Assembly (NCBI GenBank): GCA_016840695.1
Contig: JAEORV010000023.1
Coordinates: 1-10,473 of the forward strand
Source: Promethearchaeota archaeon
Lineage (GTDB): Archaea; Asgardarchaeota; Lokiarchaeia; Sigyniarchaeales; SOKP01
Length of the DNA stretch: 10,473 bases
Reading direction: 5' to 3'
The position numbers and the translations under genes were made by a program. Of the stretch, positions 2,964 through 10,473 are shown piece after piece. The first letter of the stretch is position 1, and the number at the start of each line of letters is the position of its first letter. The notes under the pieces were generated by a model. It saw only the letters and a list, made by a program, of their open reading frames with translations. It was not told the DNA's origin and made no database searches.

Positions 2964-4079
2964 ATGATTGATGAGCAAGAGAAAAGAAAAATTGTTTCAC
3001 TTTATGAAAAGGGAGCCAGCGTTACGTCGATATGCACAAAGCATAAATTATCCAGAAGCACGGTTTATGACTGGATAAAAAAATATGCAATGATTGAGCG
3101 GCCTTCTGGAGAGGTATCAGATGTTAAGCAGATTTACCTTCTCGAAAAGCGCCTAAAACGTCTCGAAACTGAGCTTTCAATCTGGCAGAAGAGCGGTTGT
3201 TCGATTGAATCGCCCGTATCAAAGAAGCTTGAAGCCATACTTATGCTGCACGAAGAATATGGCGTGCATCCAACATGTGAAACGCTGGGAGTGAGGCGCT
3301 CCACGTTTTATCACTACCAACGCCGAAGACCTATTCAAACTCAAGTTCAGAAGGATGATGAACTTCTAAAACCAAAAATCGAGAAAATATTCAATGATAC
3401 GAGAGGTAGGTTGGGATCCAAGAAGATTCGTATTAAATTAATGGAACTAGATTTTGTTGTTAGTGTTTCCAGAGTCTCTCGATTGATGAAGGAAATGGGG
3501 CTAAAATGTGTATCACATGGGAATGTCCCAAAACGGCTGCATAACGGATCCAGCAAATATTACAGAAACAAATTAGGACAAAGTTTTACTCAAACTGATC
3601 CAAACAGAGTATGGGTCAGTGATATTACGCATCTTTATGTTGATTACTGTCGATATAATTTGTGTGTAGTAATAGACTTGTTTTCGCGAAAGGTTATTGC
3701 GTATACATTATCTGATGACGAAAGAGCTTCGCTCGTAATTAATACTTTTAAAAAGGCTTATACAAAAAGGCAGCCAACGGATTTGATGTTCCATAGCGAC
3801 CAAGGTGTTCAGTATACAGCTTTTGATTTTAAGAATTTGCTTAGGGAACGGCAAGTCACACAGTCGTTTTCAAATGCTGGATATCCTTATGACAATGCAG
3901 TTGCGGAATCATTCTTTCGAGCATTGAAATCAGAGGAAGCGTCACAATACTACTATAAAACATTTGACGAGCTGGAAAAATCGATTAGCGAATATATTTA
4001 CTTCTATAACACGGAAAGACCTCACCAAAGCCTGAATTATTTGACGCCAGATCAAGTCGAAAAGAACTATAAAGGCTAA
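2964..4079 (+). CDS. IS3-family transposase, OrfA and OrfB in one frame
   Basis: The 371-residue protein has the IS3 layout. An N-terminal helix-turn-helix (about 5-42, with GASVTSICTKHKLSRSTVYD) binds the element ends. A Leu-rich heptad segment (about 57-76) serves for dimerisation, then comes an HTH_21-like linker with YGSKKIR-type sequence (here GRLGSKKIRIKL, 148-159). The rve catalytic domain has the acidic triad D220 (VWVSDITH), D279 (FHSDQGVQY) and E315 (NAVAESFF), with 35 residues between the last two and a C-terminal YNTERPHQSLNYLTP block. Most IS3 elements make OrfAB by a -1 frameshift, but here the two parts are joined in one uninterrupted frame. All catalytic residues are present, so the enzyme could be active. 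ATG 2964 follows AAAGGTGA at a good distance. Confidence 0.95.
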   Translation: MIDEQEKRKIVSLYEKGASVTSICTKHKLSRSTVYDWIKKYAMIERPSGEVSDVKQIYLLEKRLKRLETELSIWQKSGCSIESPVSKKLEAILMLHEEYGVHPTCETLGVRRSTFYHYQRRRPIQTQVQKDDELLKPKIEKIFNDTRGRLGSKKIRIKLMELDFVVSVSRVSRLMKEMGLKCVSHGNVPKRLHNGSSKYYRNKLGQSFTQTDPNRVWVSDITHLYVDYCRYNLCVVIDLFSRKVIAYTLSDDERASLVINTFKKAYTKRQPTDLMFHSDQGVQYTAFDFKNLLRERQVTQSFSNAGYPYDNAVAESFFRALKSEEASQYYYKTFDELEKSISEYIYFYNTERPHQSLNYLTPDQVEKNYKG

Positions 4080-4085
4080 ATGTAA

Positions 4086-4132
4086 ATAGGCTTTTTCGGA
4101 CATTCCAATAAAAAGTGTCCAAAAAAGCCTAT
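4086..4132. repeat. Long near-perfect hairpin after the transposase gene
   Basis: The arm 4086-4102 (ATAGGCTTTTTCGGACA) pairs with 4116-4132 (TGTCCAAAAAAGCCTAT) over 17 positions with a single C/A mismatch and a 13-base loop. It starts 7 bases after the transposase stop. It lacks a T run after the stem, so it is not a standard intrinsic terminator. It may shape the end of the transposase mRNA or be part of the insertion sequence's right end. The GGACA/TGTCC core resembles a motif frequent in IS3-family terminal repeats. Confidence 0.7.
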
Positions 4133-4192
4133 CCAGTTCAATGCCCAGGGGGTGGCGAGATCTGAACCCCTGTGTTTTTTGTAAAGTAATTG

Positions 4193-4230
4193 AAAGGTAT
4201 TGATATTGAAGAATATGGATACCTTTTTAT
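4193..4230 (+). terminator. Terminator-like hairpin without an upstream gene
   Basis: AAAGGTAT (4193-4200) pairs with ATACCTTT (4219-4226). Inside it ATATT pairs with AATAT around a GAAG loop, and TTTTTATT follows on the + strand. The structure is a good intrinsic terminator. No gene ends just before it except the transposase more than 110 bases upstream, so it either insulates the next operon or is left over from a displaced gene. Confidence 0.6.
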
Positions 4231-4333
4231 TATACTGTTTCAATAGGGAATTTTGTTGGCCGTATACTATCCATTTTAGTTTGCCTGTTACAAAATGTTA
4301 ATGGTAAAAAGGCCGGAAACAGTGGTTTCTTGA

Positions 4334-4385
4334 TAAAAAAAGCACCTAGATTTGAACTGTCCAAATATAATGTTCAGATCTGGGT
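4334..4385 (-). terminator. Intrinsic terminator on the minus strand
   Basis: Arms 4344-4357 and 4372-4385 pair over 14 positions, 12 Watson-Crick and two G-T, with a 14-base loop. Read on the minus strand the stem is followed by GC and then seven T (A run at 4335-4341), the classic terminator layout. There is no minus-strand gene to its right in the 180 bases before the next coding region, so it would end either a short antisense transcript or transcription coming from within the neighbouring gene. Confidence 0.6.
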
Positions 4386-4462
4386 ACCCTATTCAAAATA
4401 AAATCCTAGTCGTTTTTCCAAAGAATTTGAGTATAAACAAAATAAGATATTTATCTCATTCA

Positions 4463-4491
4463 TGGCATTTTATTGTAATTTAAATTATAAT
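4463..4491 (+). promoter_or_regulatory. Candidate promoter of the RloC-like/DUF2130 operon
   Basis: A perfect -10 hexamer TATAAT sits at 4486-4491 in a strongly A+T-rich stretch, 74 bases upstream of the start codon. The matching -35 position (around 4463-4468, TGGCAT) is a poor match, so the call rests on the -10 box, the A+T richness and the position only. Confidence 0.35.
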
Positions 4492-4512
4492 GATAAGCGT
4501 GGATAAATAAAA

Positions 4513-4557
4513 TCGTAGTCTAACACGACAATTATATATCGTAGACCTAGCGGAGGA
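4513..4557 (+). promoter_or_regulatory. Leader hairpin/repeat and ribosome binding site before the RloC-like gene
   Basis: TCGTAGTC (4513-4520) is repeated as TCGTAGAC (4539-4546), 26 bases apart. GTCT and ACGA (4518-4528) can also pair with TCGTAGAC to form an 8-bp stem with a 3-base bulge. GGAGG (4552-4556 region) follows directly and lies 9 bases before GTG 4566. The arrangement could be an operator or a leader that limits translation; neither is shown by sequence alone. Confidence 0.4.
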
Positions 4558-4565
4558 TCAGTATT

Positions 4566-6737
4566 GTGTCAAGCAATAATACTAAAAGGGAAAAGGCTGC
4601 AATTAATATCAATTTACTGAACCACCCTGACAAGTTCAGCCCAAGTAGCCAAGAACTTACCATTATAAGAAAAGTAAACTTTATATTCGGGAAAAACGGC
4701 ACGGGAAAAACAACTATGGCTGATGAGATTTTGAGTCAGTTGTATACTGACTATGATGTCTGTGTTTTCAAAGATTTTGATGGTGTTATCGAGAATGATA
4801 GGTTGAATGCTGTAGCACTTGGTACAGAAAATGCAAGAATACAGAAAGAAATTGATGTTGTAAATAGAAAAATTGCTGAAATAGAAAAACAAATAATTCA
4901 ACCAGATGGGCAGGCTGTAGAGAATTTGTTTACTAAAGCTGAAAAATCGAAAAAGACATATGAGGAGCAGAAGAATAAAATCAACAATTTTTTCACAGCT
5001 TCCGCACGAAAGATAAAAAATGTATCAAATCCTCAAATAGCAAAAACAACTTATGATAAATTAAGCTTCCAAGAGGATATTAAAAAAGCCAACTTGCTAT
5101 CAGAGGCGAATATTACTGAATATAAAAATATAATAAGAGCAGACAAAAAGGCGGAAGTCTCGAATATTCTCTTTCTAAATGTTGATTTATCATCACATTT
5201 AGAATCAGTGAATGCAATTTTACAATGCAGTGTTGTTCAGACAAAAGATATACCTGAGCTAACTAGTCAAGCAGAGAAACAGAATTTTGCCAGACAAGGC
5301 ATGAGCATTCACGAACAAAAATCTGGAGAAATATGCGCTTTTTGTGGGAATGAAATCACTACTGAGCGGTGGCAACTGCTTGGGAACTATTTTAATGATA
5401 AGGTAAAACAATTGGAGCGCCGCATTGCTGATCGAATTACAAAAATCAAATCTGAACTAAAGGCCCTATACGAAATAGAAAAAATAGAAAAAGATAAGTT
5501 TTACAGTAAATTCGAACAGGATATAATTAACGTAAATCTAAAGGTTAATACCAAACGAAATGAATATAAAGAATTCTTCGAAAGCTTACAGTCTGCCTTG
5601 GAGGAAAAGTATAAAAATCTTTTTATTAAATCTGCTCCGTTTGAAATAATCATACCTGCGAATTTTAATGAAATAGAAAAAGAATGCAAAACCTTGGTGG
5701 ACAAACATAATGAATTAGCATTAAATCTTACGGCAGAACAGGAAAAGGCCAAAAACACTTTGCGCTATCATGAAGTAAAAAAAATCTTGAATGAATTCAA
5801 ATATGACGATGAAAGCATTAAACTTGTAACACTAAATGCAGCAAATGATTTGGCACAGAATGAACTTCAAGAGAAGAGGACAGAATTTCGTAATAAACAA
5901 AATGAGCGCACTGCACTGATTCTACAAACAAAAGATGAAGAAAAAATTGCAGGAAAAATCAATAGTCTGCTAAAAAAAATGGGTGTTGTCTCGTTCTCGC
6001 TTATGCTGGTTGAGGATAACGAAGAGAACCAAAAAGGACAATATCAAATAAAAAGTTATGATGAAAGCATTAGATCTATTACGGAATTAAGCAAAGGTGA
6101 AAAGAACATAATTGCTTTTTTGTATTTCATATTCAGCCTTGAAAGCATCGATAATAAAAGCAAGCCTAAAATCATTGTATTAGATGACCCGATGACAAGT
6201 AATGACGATACGATGCAATATTTAATGATAGGAGAGATCCAAAAACTATATAGGGGACTTGAGGACGGAAATTATTTTATTTTGCTTACTCATAATTGCC
6301 ATTTTTACCTAAACGTTCGGCCAAGAATAGGGGAAAACTTCTATGATAAATATGGAGTTTTTCATTTGTATTCTGATGGGAAGCGTACGACAATAAAATG
6401 CATTAGTAAAGGGAAGCAGGATTTCAACTCGAGTTATGAGACCCTATGGAAGGAATTGGTGTTTTTGTATCGAGCGAATGAGGCCGAACCAGATTTGATG
6501 TTAAGCCCTTGTCGTAAAATATGTGAAACTTACATGAATTTCACAAAGAAAAGTATTGAAGCGTTTTACGGTGATAATATAAACGCAAAAAAGCTATTTG
6601 ATGTTAATCAACACTCCATTGATGATTTTGAAGCTGATGCAAATGGCAAGACAAAGAATGAGATAAAAGACATTTTATACAATCTGTTTAAAGACAATGA
6701 TGCGGAAGAACATATGAATAGTTATTGGAGGGAATAG
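4566..6737 (+). CDS. RloC/PrrC-like ABC-ATPase, candidate anticodon nuclease
   Basis: The 723-residue protein begins at GTG 4566 behind GGAGGA. Its ATPase is split as in Rad50/AAA_13 proteins: Walker A GKNGTGKT (42-49), then two long charged coiled-coil stretches (about 88-250 and 270-470), ABC signature ELSKGEKN (507-514), Walker B IIVLDDP (536-542) and the switch His in LLTHN (H576). Between the coils sits C257-A-F-C260-G, placed like a zinc hook. In the C-terminal part R650-x3-E654-x28-H683 (PCRKICETY ... NQHS) matches the Arg-Glu-His arrangement known for PrrC and RloC, which cut tRNA anticodon loops to stop growth when DNA restriction is disturbed. Size and hook fit RloC better than the shorter PrrC. 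The ATPase family is certain. The tRNase activity is inference from the triad, because related AAA_13 proteins with other roles carry similar C-termini. It is co-transcribed with the DUF2130 gene 4 bases downstream. Confidence 0.82.
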   Translation: MSSNNTKREKAAININLLNHPDKFSPSSQELTIIRKVNFIFGKNGTGKTTMADEILSQLYTDYDVCVFKDFDGVIENDRLNAVALGTENARIQKEIDVVNRKIAEIEKQIIQPDGQAVENLFTKAEKSKKTYEEQKNKINNFFTASARKIKNVSNPQIAKTTYDKLSFQEDIKKANLLSEANITEYKNIIRADKKAEVSNILFLNVDLSSHLESVNAILQCSVVQTKDIPELTSQAEKQNFARQGMSIHEQKSGEICAFCGNEITTERWQLLGNYFNDKVKQLERRIADRITKIKSELKALYEIEKIEKDKFYSKFEQDIINVNLKVNTKRNEYKEFFESLQSALEEKYKNLFIKSAPFEIIIPANFNEIEKECKTLVDKHNELALNLTAEQEKAKNTLRYHEVKKILNEFKYDDESIKLVTLNAANDLAQNELQEKRTEFRNKQNERTALILQTKDEEKIAGKINSLLKKMGVVSFSLMLVEDNEENQKGQYQIKSYDESIRSITELSKGEKNIIAFLYFIFSLESIDNKSKPKIIVLDDPMTSNDDTMQYLMIGEIQKLYRGLEDGNYFILLTHNCHFYLNVRPRIGENFYDKYGVFHLYSDGKRTTIKCISKGKQDFNSSYETLWKELVFLYRANEAEPDLMLSPCRKICETYMNFTKKSIEAFYGDNINAKKLFDVNQHSIDDFEADANGKTKNEIKDILYNLFKDNDAEEHMNSYWRE

Positions 6738-6741
6738 AATC

Positions 6742-8031
6742 ATGAATGAAATTAAATGTCCAAATTGTGGGGAAGTATTTAAAGTAGATGAATCAGGTTT
6801 CGCGAATATTATCAAACAGGTGCGTGATCACGAATTCGTGAAAGAGTTACATGAGCGAGAATTGCTGATGGAACAAGATAAAGAAAATGCAGTCAAATTA
6901 GCTGAAGTCAGTATAAAAAGCACATTGAAGGATGAAATGGTAAGAAAAGATGCAGAGATTGCTGAGCTTAAAGCTAAAATCGACGCAGATAAAACTTCTA
7001 AGATACTTGCCGTAACTGAAGCTGTAGCGAAAATAGAAAAAGAACGAGATGCTTTGGCTAATGAACTTAAAGGCAAGGATGTTGAAAAACAGTTAGCTGT
7101 CTCGGATGCCGTAAACAAAATTGAAAAAGAAAGGGACACTCTGGCAGGTGAACTAAAATCTAAGGAATCAGAAAAAAAGCTACTTGAGGCATCACTTAAA
7201 GAAAAACATCTCGCGGAAATAAAATCTAAAGATGAGATGATTGAGTACTATAAAGATATGAAAGCTAAGCTCTCAACGAAGATGGTTGGCGAAACTTTAG
7301 AGCAACATTGTGAGGTTCAGTTTAATCAAATTCGCGCCACAGCTTTTCCTAAGGCTTTTTTTGAGAAGGACAATGATGCTCGGTTCGGTAGCAAGGGTGA
7401 TTACATTTATCGCGAGTCTGATAAAGAGGGAAATGAAATCATTTCCATTATGTTTGAAATGAAAAATGAGCAAGATGGAACAACGACTAAGAAAAAAAAC
7501 GAGGATTTTCTCAAAGAACTTGATAAGGATCGCAACGAAAAGGGGTGTGAGTATGCCGTACTAGTCTCGATGTTAGAGTCTGAAAGTGAGCTATACAATT
7601 CCGGTATTGTAGATGTATCTCACCGATATCCGAAAATGTATGTGATACGTCCGCAATTTTTTATACCTATGATTACTGTTCTCCGAAATGCTGCCATGAA
7701 CTCACTGGAGTATAAAGCAGAGCTTGCACTGATTCGCAATCAAAATATTGATATTACGAAATTTGAAGAGAATATTGAAGCATTTAAAAGTGGATTTGCT
7801 CGGAATTATGATTTGGCTAGTCGTAGATTTAAGGCGGCGATAGATGAGATTGATAAGACTATAAAAAGCCTTGAGAAGACCAAGGAAAACTTGTTGCGAT
7901 CAGAGGATAATTTGCGATTAGCAAATAATAAAGCTGAGGACTTAACAATAAAAAGATTGACGAGAGGAAATTCCACAATGACAGAAAAATTTACGCAACT
8001 TGAAGATAAAGAGATGGATGAGAGTAAATGA
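6742..8031 (+). CDS. DUF2130 protein: coiled coil plus PD-(D/E)xK-like nuclease core
   Basis: The 429-residue protein starts at ATG 6742, 4 bases after the RloC-like stop, with GGAGGG overlapping the end of that gene. Order of parts: a single CPNCGEVF knuckle (C6, C9), a long Lys/Glu coiled coil (about 25-180) with two tandem 29-residue units, then the DUF2130 domain (about 180-325), and a second coiled coil (about 340-400). In the domain, G-S-K-G-D220 followed by ISIMFE239-M-K241 fits the D...ExK metal-binding core of PD-(D/E)xK nucleases such as RmuC relatives, followed by the typical K-N-x-D-F-L-K-E-L-D-K-D-R helix. The family's function is not established; a DNA-acting nuclease is the best guess. 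Tight coupling to an RloC-like ATPase suggests shared regulation and perhaps direct partnership, which is inference. Confidence 0.85.
   Translation: MNEIKCPNCGEVFKVDESGFANIIKQVRDHEFVKELHERELLMEQDKENAVKLAEVSIKSTLKDEMVRKDAEIAELKAKIDADKTSKILAVTEAVAKIEKERDALANELKGKDVEKQLAVSDAVNKIEKERDTLAGELKSKESEKKLLEASLKEKHLAEIKSKDEMIEYYKDMKAKLSTKMVGETLEQHCEVQFNQIRATAFPKAFFEKDNDARFGSKGDYIYRESDKEGNEIISIMFEMKNEQDGTTTKKKNEDFLKELDKDRNEKGCEYAVLVSMLESESELYNSGIVDVSHRYPKMYVIRPQFFIPMITVLRNAAMNSLEYKAELALIRNQNIDITKFEENIEAFKSGFARNYDLASRRFKAAIDEIDKTIKSLEKTKENLLRSEDNLRLANNKAEDLTIKRLTRGNSTMTEKFTQLEDKEMDESK
6997..7170 (+). repeat. Tandem 29-residue coiled-coil repeat inside the DUF2130 gene
   Basis: Residues 86-114 and 115-143 align without gaps with 19 of 29 identical positions, sharing KIEKERD and the ELK segment. 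The DNA copies (87 bases each) differ at many third positions, so the duplication is not recent. It lengthens the N-terminal coiled coil and may vary between relatives. Confidence 0.7.
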
Positions 8032-8048
8032 ATTGTAGAATTATTAAT

Positions 8049-8072
8049 AGCCATAGAATAATTGGCTCTTTC
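8049..8072 (+). terminator. Weak terminator-like hairpin after the DUF2130 gene
   Basis: AGCCA (8049-8053) pairs with TGGCT (8063-8067) around a 9-base A+T-rich loop, followed by CTTTCT. The stem is short and the T run is interrupted, so it probably gives partial termination at best. Confidence 0.3.
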
Positions 8073-8077
8073 TAGTA

Positions 8078-8153
8078 TATAATTGACGAGATGGTTTTTG
8101 CTAGGTGTTTTTTACACACAGAATTCTATTCATAAGTTGGGAATGATATTTAT
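8078..8153 (+). promoter_or_regulatory. Possible promoter region of the SLOG-PLD-helicase gene
   Basis: The 122-base gap before the third gene is long compared with the 4-base gap upstream, which suggests separate control. It contains TATAAT at 8078-8083, overlapping a TTGACG hexamer (8083-8088) that could serve as a -35 box, but no convincing partner lies at the right distance from either. The start ATG 8154 has only a weak GGGA (8139-8142) as ribosome binding site. An in-frame stop (TAA 8133) excludes an upstream start. Confidence 0.25.
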
Positions 8154-10473
8154 ATGATAAGTGATACAACGGTTGCAATTATTGGGTGTTTACCTTCTGG
8201 AATTGAGGAAAGCTCTTTACTTTTTTCTGAGATAAAAACGGCTATTCGTGAAAGCATTGAATGTAATATAGAACAAGGTTCTGATACATTCCTGATTGGC
8301 ATAGAACAAGAGTCGGATATTTATACTGCAGAAATAATTTTGGAAATGAAAAAGAGGCATACAATAAAGATTATTATCGTTGTACCATATGACAACTATT
8401 TGGACGAACTGGAGCTTTCGTCCGATAAATATAAAACGATAACTGATAAATGCAGAGAAATAATTTCCGTAAGCAGTAAAAAATCAAAAGAGAGAAACAA
8501 TATATTAAATCGCTACCTGGTTGATAACTCTAGCAAATTAATTTGTTATTATGAAGGTCTGAAAAATGGTGCTGAATATACCTATATTTATGCGCAATCT
8601 AAAAAGGTTGAAATAGAAAATATTGCTGAAAAAGTTGCTGTAGAACAAAAACCTGTGCATACCTTGGATAACAAGAGAGGGAAAAAAGTCTTTGAGGAGT
8701 TTTCCAGCAATATGAGATTGGGAAGTGAATTATCAGTTATTTCCGCGTATTTTACAATATATGCATACGAAAAAATGAAAGATACACTTGCACGAATTGA
8801 TAGCATGAGGTTTATATTTACTGAGCCAACATTTGTAAATGATGAATCAAATCTAATTCGAGAATATTATATTAAAAACACCTCTACATCAAAGTTATCA
8901 GGTAATAAATTTGAGATAAAACTAAAGAATGAAATGAAGCAAGCGCGTATTGCAAAGGAATGTGCTGCGTGGCTCTCAGAAAAGGTTGAGATTAAATCTT
9001 TGATACATCCTAACCCGGCACAACCAAGATTTATTCATATGCATCACAAATATGATGATACGTTAATACATGGTACAGTTGATTTCACTACTGACGGCTT
9101 AGGGATAACGAATTCTGATAGACTTGACAGCAATCTATTAATGAACGGGAAAGCTTTTACTGAAAGCTTCTTAATGATGTTTAATGAATTATGGAGTAAC
9201 AATGAAGCGGTTAAAGATGTAAAAAAAGAAGTGTTAGAGCATATGCAGATTTTATATAAGGAAAACACACCTGAGTTTATATATTTTGTGACATTATATA
9301 ATATTTTTAGTAATGATATTGATTCACTAGTTGAAGACAATATTGTGAAAACGAAAACAGGGTTTAAAGACACTGCTATTTGGAACATGTTATATAAATT
9401 TCAAAGAGACGGTGTCATTGGTGCAATAGATAAACTGGAGAGATTTAATGGTTGCATACTTGCGGATTCTGTTGGTCTAGGTAAAACATTTGAAGCTTTA
9501 GCAGTAATTAAATATTATGAGTTACGAAATGATAGGGTTTTAGTCCTTGCACCAAAAAAATTGAGAGAAAACTGGACGGTATATACGCAAAATGACAGAA
9601 GGAACCTTCTTGTGGGGGATAGATTTAACTACGATGTCTTGAATCATACCGATTTAAGCAGATATGAAGGTAAGTCGGGAGAGATTAATTTAGAAAGCAT
9701 AAATTGGTCAAATTATGATTTGATAGTTATTGATGAGTCTCACAATTTTAGAAACAATAATCCAAGAAAAGACAAAGAAACAAGATATTCAAGGCTATTA
9801 AATGATGTAATAAAAAAAGGTGTAAAGACAAAAATTCTTATGCTTTCTGCAACACCTGTAAACAACCGAATGAATGATATAAAAAATCAGATAGCTTTTA
9901 TTACGGAAGGAAATGATTCCGCTCTAACAGATGAAGGAATTGTAAGTATTGAACAAACATTAAGACGTGCGCAGCTAATATTTAATCGCTGGTTAGACTT
10001 GCCTGAAGAAAATCGTAATGCAGATGAATTTATTGAAATGATGAATATGGATTATTTTAAGCTCTTGGATACAGTCACAATTGCCCGTTCAAGAAAGCAT
10101 ATTGAAAAATATTATAATTTAGAAGAAATCGGTAAATTCCCAGATAGAGAAGTACCAGTAAACAAAAAAACAGATATTGATTTGGAAAATGAATTTCCGC
10201 CATTGAAAGACATAAACAAAACTATCAGAAACCTTAATATGAGTTCGTATTCTCCACTAAAATATGTTCTTCCTGAAAAACAGCGAGAATATAGTCAAAA
10301 ATATGATATAGAAGTTCAGGGAGGGCAATCCATATTTAAACAAACAGATAGAGAGCAAAGTTTAGTTAACTTAATGAGGGTTAATATTCTGAAGCGAATG
10401 GAGAGCTCAATATACTCATTTGGGCTTACGGTTTCAAAGATTTTACAGGATATTGATACCCTAATTAATAGAA
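8154..10473 (+). CDS. SLOG (YpsA/DUF1273-like) - PLD-like - SNF2-type helicase fusion, N-terminal part
   Basis: The frame is open from ATG 8154 to the right edge, giving 773 residues without a stop. Residues 1 to about 155 follow the YpsA/DUF1273 (SLOG) pattern: IIGCLP near the start, FLIGIEQESD with G49 and D55, AEIILEMKK, IIIVVPY, then NRYLVDNSSKLICYYEG and NGAEYTYIYA. Residues from about 180 to 400 resemble a phospholipase-D-like domain, with H297-x-K299 and HGTVDFTTDGL in place of the usual GSxNxT motif. The helicase core starts with FQRD (416-419), Walker A DSVGLGKT (438-445), DESH (527-530) and SATP (565-568); the second helicase lobe lies beyond the window. Such proteins are translocases on nucleic acid and occur in restriction or defence clusters. 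The SLOG Gly-rich ligand loops are altered, so ligand binding is uncertain. Domain calls for the helicase are firm, for SLOG good, for PLD moderate. Confidence 0.85.
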   Translation, partial: MISDTTVAIIGCLPSGIEESSLLFSEIKTAIRESIECNIEQGSDTFLIGIEQESDIYTAEIILEMKKRHTIKIIIVVPYDNYLDELELSSDKYKTITDKCREIISVSSKKSKERNNILNRYLVDNSSKLICYYEGLKNGAEYTYIYAQSKKVEIENIAEKVAVEQKPVHTLDNKRGKKVFEEFSSNMRLGSELSVISAYFTIYAYEKMKDTLARIDSMRFIFTEPTFVNDESNLIREYYIKNTSTSKLSGNKFEIKLKNEMKQARIAKECAAWLSEKVEIKSLIHPNPAQPRFIHMHHKYDDTLIHGTVDFTTDGLGITNSDRLDSNLLMNGKAFTESFLMMFNELWSNNEAVKDVKKEVLEHMQILYKENTPEFIYFVTLYNIFSNDIDSLVEDNIVKTKTGFKDTAIWNMLYKFQRDGVIGAIDKLERFNGCILADSVGLGKTFEALAVIKYYELRNDRVLVLAPKKLRENWTVYTQNDRRNLLVGDRFNYDVLNHTDLSRYEGKSGEINLESINWSNYDLIVIDESHNFRNNNPRKDKETRYSRLLNDVIKKGVKTKILMLSATPVNNRMNDIKNQIAFITEGNDSALTDEGIVSIEQTLRRAQLIFNRWLDLPEENRNADEFIEMMNMDYFKLLDTVTIARSRKHIEKYYNLEEIGKFPDREVPVNKKTDIDLENEFPPLKDINKTIRNLNMSSYSPLKYVLPEKQREYSQKYDIEVQGGQSIFKQTDREQSLVNLMRVNILKRMESSIYSFGLTVSKILQDIDTLINR

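Follow-up and report, generated by a model that had tools for sequence, protein, structure and literature searches.

A predicted type III-like restriction helicase with an N-terminal SLOG domain: a probable ligand switch in relatives, apparently blind in a Promethearchaeota copy

Introduction

In the antiphage Thoeris system, the SLOG domain of ThsA is described as the ligand-binding switch of the effector (PMC12948488), and phage SLOG domains fused to nucleic-acid-processing domains, including a superfamily-1 helicase, are proposed in PMC9503650 to be sensors of derivatives of nicotinamide adenine dinucleotide (NAD) or ADP-ribose. In YpsA of Bacillus subtilis, G53 and E55 make up a GxD/E signature, and the G53A and E55Q variants lose filamentation and are impaired in focus formation, as reported in PMC6459960. 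Type-2 BREX-related systems carry an N-terminal HKD domain on a Swi2/Snf2 helicase with a methyltransferase adjoining (PMC12839542). Here we analyze a gene of a Promethearchaeota archaeon in which a YpsA-type SLOG domain is joined to a PLD-fold domain and an SNF2-type helicase. It lies on contig JAEORV010000023.1 of assembly GCA_016840695.1, and this contig, 10,473 nucleotides in length, is the entire stretch of DNA analyzed (the window). No description of a SLOG-PLD-SNF2 fusion was found in the literature searched, which consisted of open-licence papers, and within that literature the architecture is apparently undescribed, as a preliminary description made from the sequence alone had supposed.

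Results

The fusion of SLOG, PLD-fold and helicase domains is real, recurrent and rare. The helicase frame stops at the contig end (Table 1), while complete relatives of the protein are 1241-1275 amino acids long. The N-terminus shows the Rossmannoid SLOG fold and is of the YpsA type. The three-domain frame read in the preliminary description, with PLD fold and SNF2 helicase following the SLOG, recurs in identical order in 35 relatives. The protein contains the SNF2-type superfamily 2 helicase motifs ADSVGLGKT, DESH and SAT. Helicase_C is found in the relative P0002 (8.7e-17), and the window copy ends before that region. Amino acids 197-771 match the PADLOC model C3a139 'HKD+Snf2' (E 4e-76; P0002, E 3.2e-141), and no Pfam match to SIR2 up to E 1 is present in the first 773 amino acids of the window protein.

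A protein search with amino acids 1-400 gave 4326 matches in total; among the 120 listed, 24 carry a YpsA match together with the helicase domains and 96 have no YpsA match. The SLOG-less proteins P0025-P0059 begin at the PLD part, except for the fragment P0030, which starts inside the SLOG, and complete ones are about 1089 amino acids long. Searching with the SLOG part of P0013, with candidates limited to about 0.55-1.75 times the length of that protein, returned 30 proteins (P0013 included), all with the same helicase domains and 10 of them new. Fused relatives total 35 (L078 included); three are fragments (P0001, P0006 and P0007) and two belong to named assemblies, L078 and the P0023-bearing L079. 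When 84,980 species were scanned with sequence patterns, 23 loci resulted, a lower bound because the patterns require canonical motifs: the fused L078 and L079, 20 loci in frames of 113-267 amino acids and one, L090, with no frame. With a cut-off of E 1e-38, matches occur in 5 of 95 genomes from the order of L079, two with long fused frames, and in 8 of 391 sampled genomes from its class, one with a fused frame. The SLOG profile matches 3 of 83 genomes in the class to which the host belongs, and the two matches outside the host are weak and lie in frames of 272 and 312 amino acids. Since the fusion is seen in the host genome alone among these 83, its distribution points to horizontal acquisition of the window gene.

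The SLOG pocket is canonical in the relatives and altered in the window copy. All 35 fused relatives match the loop motifs GYR..K, MA.GFD and C(Y/F)YDG..GGTE(Y/H)T. Residues F9, Y12, R13 and K16 of loop 1 are present in 24/24 relatives from the search with amino acids 1-400, and their losses in the window appear as substitutions in one alignment and as a short deletion in another. The first-loop aromatic, Tyr in 35/35 relatives, is Cys12 in the window. By alignment register, Glu53-Ser-Asp55 of the window corresponds to the substrate-site GxD/E signature of YpsA and to GFD of the relatives; the window thus reads ExD at a site where G53 and D55 are found in 35/35 relatives. The domain is treated as a YpsA homologue on account of its fold and is not counted among ligand-binding YpsA proteins. 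None of the loop 3 residues D134, G138 and T140, fixed in 24/24 and in 35/35 relatives, is retained. Measured against the 24 relatives, the complete set of loop losses is F9, Y12, R13, K16, M50, A51, G53, F54, D134, G138 and T140, with L73 and Y115 lost outside the loops. Among columns fixed in 24/24, the window has lost 13 of 28 in the SLOG, 3 of 82 in the PLD and 0 of 51 in helicase positions 410-494 (SLOG versus PLD, Fisher p 5e-7). In an alignment with all 35 relatives, the window departs from 13 of 25 fixed columns: 11 are substituted and two, the loop 1 Arg and Lys, fall in gaps, while in leave-one-out comparisons each other fused protein breaks 0-2 of 25-27 fixed columns.

Divergence of the window copy is concentrated in the SLOG, where it is 42.8% identical to P0001, compared with 84.4% in the PLD and 95.3% in helicase positions 410-494. 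Branch lengths of the window, P0001 and P0002 are 1.17, 0.36 and 0.48 in the second SLOG tree and 0.13, 0.082 and 0.14 in the first body tree, respectively. In relative-rate tests of the SLOG, the window branch exceeds that of P0001 for 22/22 outgroups, which are mutually related and not independent, with chi2 values of 3.9-20.5, all above 3.84; for the PLD, chi2 is never above 3.0. The SLOG of the window copy is most likely without ligand binding and may be locked in a single state or have a purely structural role. Deviation of the Gly-rich loops, pointed out in the preliminary description, holds for this copy and fails as a trait of the architecture. The different ligand suggested there is likewise no such trait, because 35/35 fused relatives carry canonical loop motifs; for this copy, lost binding is the more economical interpretation.

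Relatives place the gene beside a type III-like restriction-modification set. In six plasmid relatives examined (of 526 matching records), all SLOG-less, DUF4391 comes next and then a methyltransferase (6/6), with a hypothetical gene between the two in one case. A DEAD/DEAH protein also follows in 4/6, and a small helix-turn-helix gene lies upstream of the helicase in some. The partners of L110, one of these six, are assigned by PADLOC to MTase_III (1.1e-199) and REase_III (3.6e-280). Gene order was counted in 53 loci, comprising L078, L079 and 51 viral contigs, some near-identical, whose matches start at residue 153 or later. DUF4391 is found downstream in 38/39 loci with at least 800 bases following, Mod in 32/35 with 3000 bases, and Res in 25/28 with 6000 bases, all three being present in 24/28. 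Both SLOG bearers fit this order: L078 shows the start of DUF4391, and L079 a DUF4391 gene and then a type III methyltransferase of which only about the first 119 amino acids are present. The genes downstream of the window, to which the preliminary description had directed attention, lie beyond the contig; going by the relatives, they would be DUF4391, a type III methyltransferase and a type III Res, and the window gene would be the helicase subunit of such a helicase - DUF4391 - Mod - Res set.

Region 4022-16151 of L079 looks like a disturbed mobile island, with a phage-type integrase and an AlpA/helix-turn-helix gene upstream and an ArsP-type permease downstream of the broken methyltransferase. 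DUF4391 of this locus (L079:13726-14424) gives a confident structural model (predicted local distance difference test score, pLDDT, 93.4), and solved structures offer no clear relative.

The PLD-fold domain is a predicted pseudo-nuclease. Its fold agrees with the PLD-like domain noted previously, but the catalytic HxK...GSxN motif is absent, with GTVD standing for GSxN in the window. G(S/T)xD(F/Y)(T/S) occurs in 120 of 131 proteins (130 plus the window) and G(S/T)xN(F/Y)(T/S) in none. With a spacing of up to 20, the sole HxK match among the 131 is an HHK in the window, which is absent from P0001 and P0002 and lies nearer to the GT than in L046 and L067. Among the 51 viral-contig loci, of which 49 show a helicase frame, only these last two have an intact HGK...GSSN. 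Both encode a weak DUF4391-like stretch, under the Pfam cut-off, inside an Eco57I-type methyltransferase protein, followed by an SMC-type ATPase; type III methyltransferase and Res were looked for at both in the gene-order count and neither was found. With no type III Res found at the intact-HKD loci, these cases, only two in number, suggest that the PLD nuclease was abandoned where Res is present. The PLD domain would have descended from an HKD nuclease, is predicted from motif loss to be catalytically dead, and Res would cut instead. Separately, the arrangement of intact HKD, Eco57I-type methyltransferase and SMC-type ATPase may be an earlier form of the system.

SLOG-bearing bodies are scattered among the helicase lineages. 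SLOG and body trees were rebuilt after adding 10 more fused proteins; the second body tree omits rows under 600 amino acids, L110, L046 and L041 (long branches), P0054 and seven near-copies, and the SLOG tree omits six fused near-copies and the stand-alone L082, L089, L090, L095, L097, L101 and L102. The starred branches force at least six changes, and a single clade of SLOG-bearing bodies is rejected by the approximately unbiased (AU) test (p-AU 6e-72), the distant L078 being among the taxa tested. Two distant body groups can be distinguished, A (the window's group) and B (L078 and P0121-P0130), which we compared using 12 representatives of A, the window's own clade left out, and 11 of B. Median SLOG and body identities are 54% and 69% within A (SLOG higher in 0/66 pairs) and 58% and 68% within B (1/55 pairs). 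Between A and B, the SLOG reaches 53% and the body 47%, the SLOG being higher in 128/132 pairs. Saturation is a poor explanation of this likeness, because the P0002 SLOG is only 42% identical to those of A. Fused SLOGs also group together against stand-alone YpsA (92/90 in the rebuilt tree, 87/83 in the first). From these comparisons, transfer of the SLOG between helicase lineages is likely rather than proven.

The window neighborhood looks like an acquired defence island spanning 2964-10473. G+C content is about 0.38-0.43 before 4 kb and about 0.32-0.37 after, and an IS3-type transposase (2964-4079) lies near this border. An AAA_13 ATPase and a DUF2130 protein precede the helicase (Table 1). 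The ATPase is a candidate defence-island neighbour of the helicase, functional partnership not being implied, and its plasmid relatives are at most about 35% identical in 8 listed of 222 records. Upstream of the transposase, 448-2770 holds a cluster of ferredoxin-like, thioredoxin-like, DsbD-like and DUF2703 proteins.

Table 1. Features of the window and of the SLOG-helicase protein (aa, amino acids).
Feature	Position	Strand	Remarks
SLOG - pseudo-PLD - SNF2 helicase gene	8154..10472	+	open frame, 773 aa before contig end
SLOG domain, YpsA type (PF06908), aa 1-163	8154..8642	+	
SLOG loop 1, aa 9-16, IIGCLPSG (relatives F(S/T)GYRxxK)	8178..8201	+	aromatic, Arg and Lys lost
SLOG loop 2, aa 49-55, GIEQESD (relatives GMAxGFD)	8298..8318	+	signature Gly replaced by Glu53, Asp55 retained
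SLOG loop 3, aa 134-143, EGLKNGAEYT (most relatives DGRYGGTEYT)	8553..8582	+	
PLD-fold domain, aa 164-370	8643..9263	+	without catalytic HxK
Degenerate HKD region, aa 290-312 (QPRFIHMHHKYDDTLIHGTVDFT)	9021..9089	+	GTxD instead of GSxN
SNF2-type helicase, N-terminal half, aa 410-773	9381..10472	+	Pfam SNF2-rel_dom, ResIII, DEAD
Walker A ADSVGLGKT, aa 437-445	9462..9488	+	columns invariant among relatives
DESH, aa 527-530	9732..9743	+	columns almost invariant among relatives
AAA_13 ATPase, PADLOC candidate PDC-S06	4566..6737	+	Pfam 2.3e-93, PADLOC 1.1e-232
DUF2130 protein, 4 bases 3' of the ATPase	6742..8031	+	Pfam 1.9e-89

Discussion

The explanation we favor, with a probability of roughly 0.58 for the whole, is that the gene encodes the helicase of a type III-like set that carries a SLOG switch in relatives and is blind in this copy. 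The helicase gene would have been acquired horizontally as part of a helicase - DUF4391 - Mod methyltransferase - Res set. The SLOG, an extra N-terminal domain present in some helicases of such sets, has apparently moved between lineages. The SLOG of the relatives keeps a complete YpsA-type nucleotide pocket and is probably a ligand-controlled switch that turns the helicase motor on or off, through which restriction might answer a signal that is a nucleotide or resembles NAD or ADP-ribose. In the window copy, the pocket loop residues are mostly lost while the fold, PLD and helicase remain, and a ligand is most likely no longer bound. The ligand switch on a nucleic-acid motor envisaged in the preliminary description is therefore better placed in the family than in the window copy, and as a hypothesis for the family it is fitting.

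Several observations weigh against parts of this explanation. The SLOG rate of the window differs significantly from that of P0002 for just 6/22 outgroups, which indicates that the P0002 SLOG is also accelerated, and losses in loops compared with other SLOG columns (11/18 versus 2/10) give a borderline p of 0.055. The fused-SLOG clade is not a starred branch; P0002, from the window's clade, shows no SLOG excess towards B (SLOG 45%, body 46%); and a tree constrained to separate A and B SLOG clades is worse by 9.7 log units and is not rejected (p-AU 0.267). One old fusion with many later losses, instead of module transfer, retains some probability. DUF4391 was not found in the host genome, which is 74% complete, in a search in which the controls gave no signal either. 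No signal-making enzyme was recognized among the scanned neighbours of the window, L078 and L079, several L079 neighbours having no Pfam match above the cut-off; the source of the signal would consequently be another part of the cell or the infection.

Other explanations of the SLOG domain have to be considered. Changed specificity of the window SLOG under selection, as opposed to decay, would be consistent with the open frame, with the 15/28 fixed SLOG columns kept and with the retention of Asp55 and Glu141. An N-terminal fusion position protects the frame regardless, so its openness says little, and no second protein with these altered loops was seen, the nearest, P0001 and P0002, being canonical; we consider this explanation unlikely. 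Somewhat less probable still is a SLOG that binds nucleic acid as in DprA and helps the helicase grip single-stranded DNA or DNA ends, with no small ligand involved. We give a similarly small chance to a LOG-like enzyme that cleaves the N-glycosidic bond of nucleotides and thereby makes or destroys a signal, the helicase being a mere carrier. To our knowledge, catalysis in the YpsA clade is uncharacterized, and fusion to a motor within a restriction gene set appears to fit sensing better. An artefactual join of two genes could be suspected from the fragmented host assembly (558 contigs) and from the absence of the SLOG in most of the listed relatives, but is refuted by 35 distinct other proteins with identical order, two of them in named assemblies, and we regard it as practically impossible.

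Beyond the favored explanation of a SLOG-switched type III-like helicase, we tentatively put forward a broader proposal, which we think rather doubtful: a mobile nucleotide-signal receptor, exchanged among distant helicases, might gate type III-like restriction by an NAD or nucleotide signal of infection or stress, the window copy being a blind receptor with its motor kept. Control of restriction-modification is usually attributed to the sequence of the DNA and its methyl marks. If the proposal were true, methyl-mark-based and signal-based immunity would be united in one protein, and a conserved nucleotide-type pocket on a type III-like motor would mean that a small-molecule alarm can gate restriction. 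The occurrence of pocket-intact relatives and a pocket-lost copy in one family makes the gating idea directly testable.

Among known systems, YpsA of B. subtilis (2NX2) resembles the SLOG domain in fold and, in the relatives, also in the GxD/E signature and first-loop aromatic, but is a stand-alone protein, whereas the window copy is fused and its pocket lost. The effector of Thoeris ThsA is SIR2, while the effector part here is a helicase. The phage SLOG fusions are phage proteins with a helicase of another superfamily, and the accessible text of PMC9503650 mentions neither a PLD nor a type III set. The HKD of Type-2 BREX-related systems is described as an effector DNase, and SLOG has 0 occurrences in the main text of PMC12839542. 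Unlike the nucleases SauUSI (type IV) and NgoAVII/BfiI, proteins of the window clade have no HxK and begin with a SLOG. The PLD-SNF2 body belongs to the same family as the PADLOC C3a139 'HKD+Snf2' helicases ('helicase-related protein'), but that model stops short of the SLOG part and the plasmid relatives examined lack a SLOG. Classical type III systems consist of two genes. The likeness to type III restriction-modification lies in the Mod/Res partners beside the helicases of the relatives, including L110, with the difference that here the helicase and DUF4391 stand ahead of Mod and Res.
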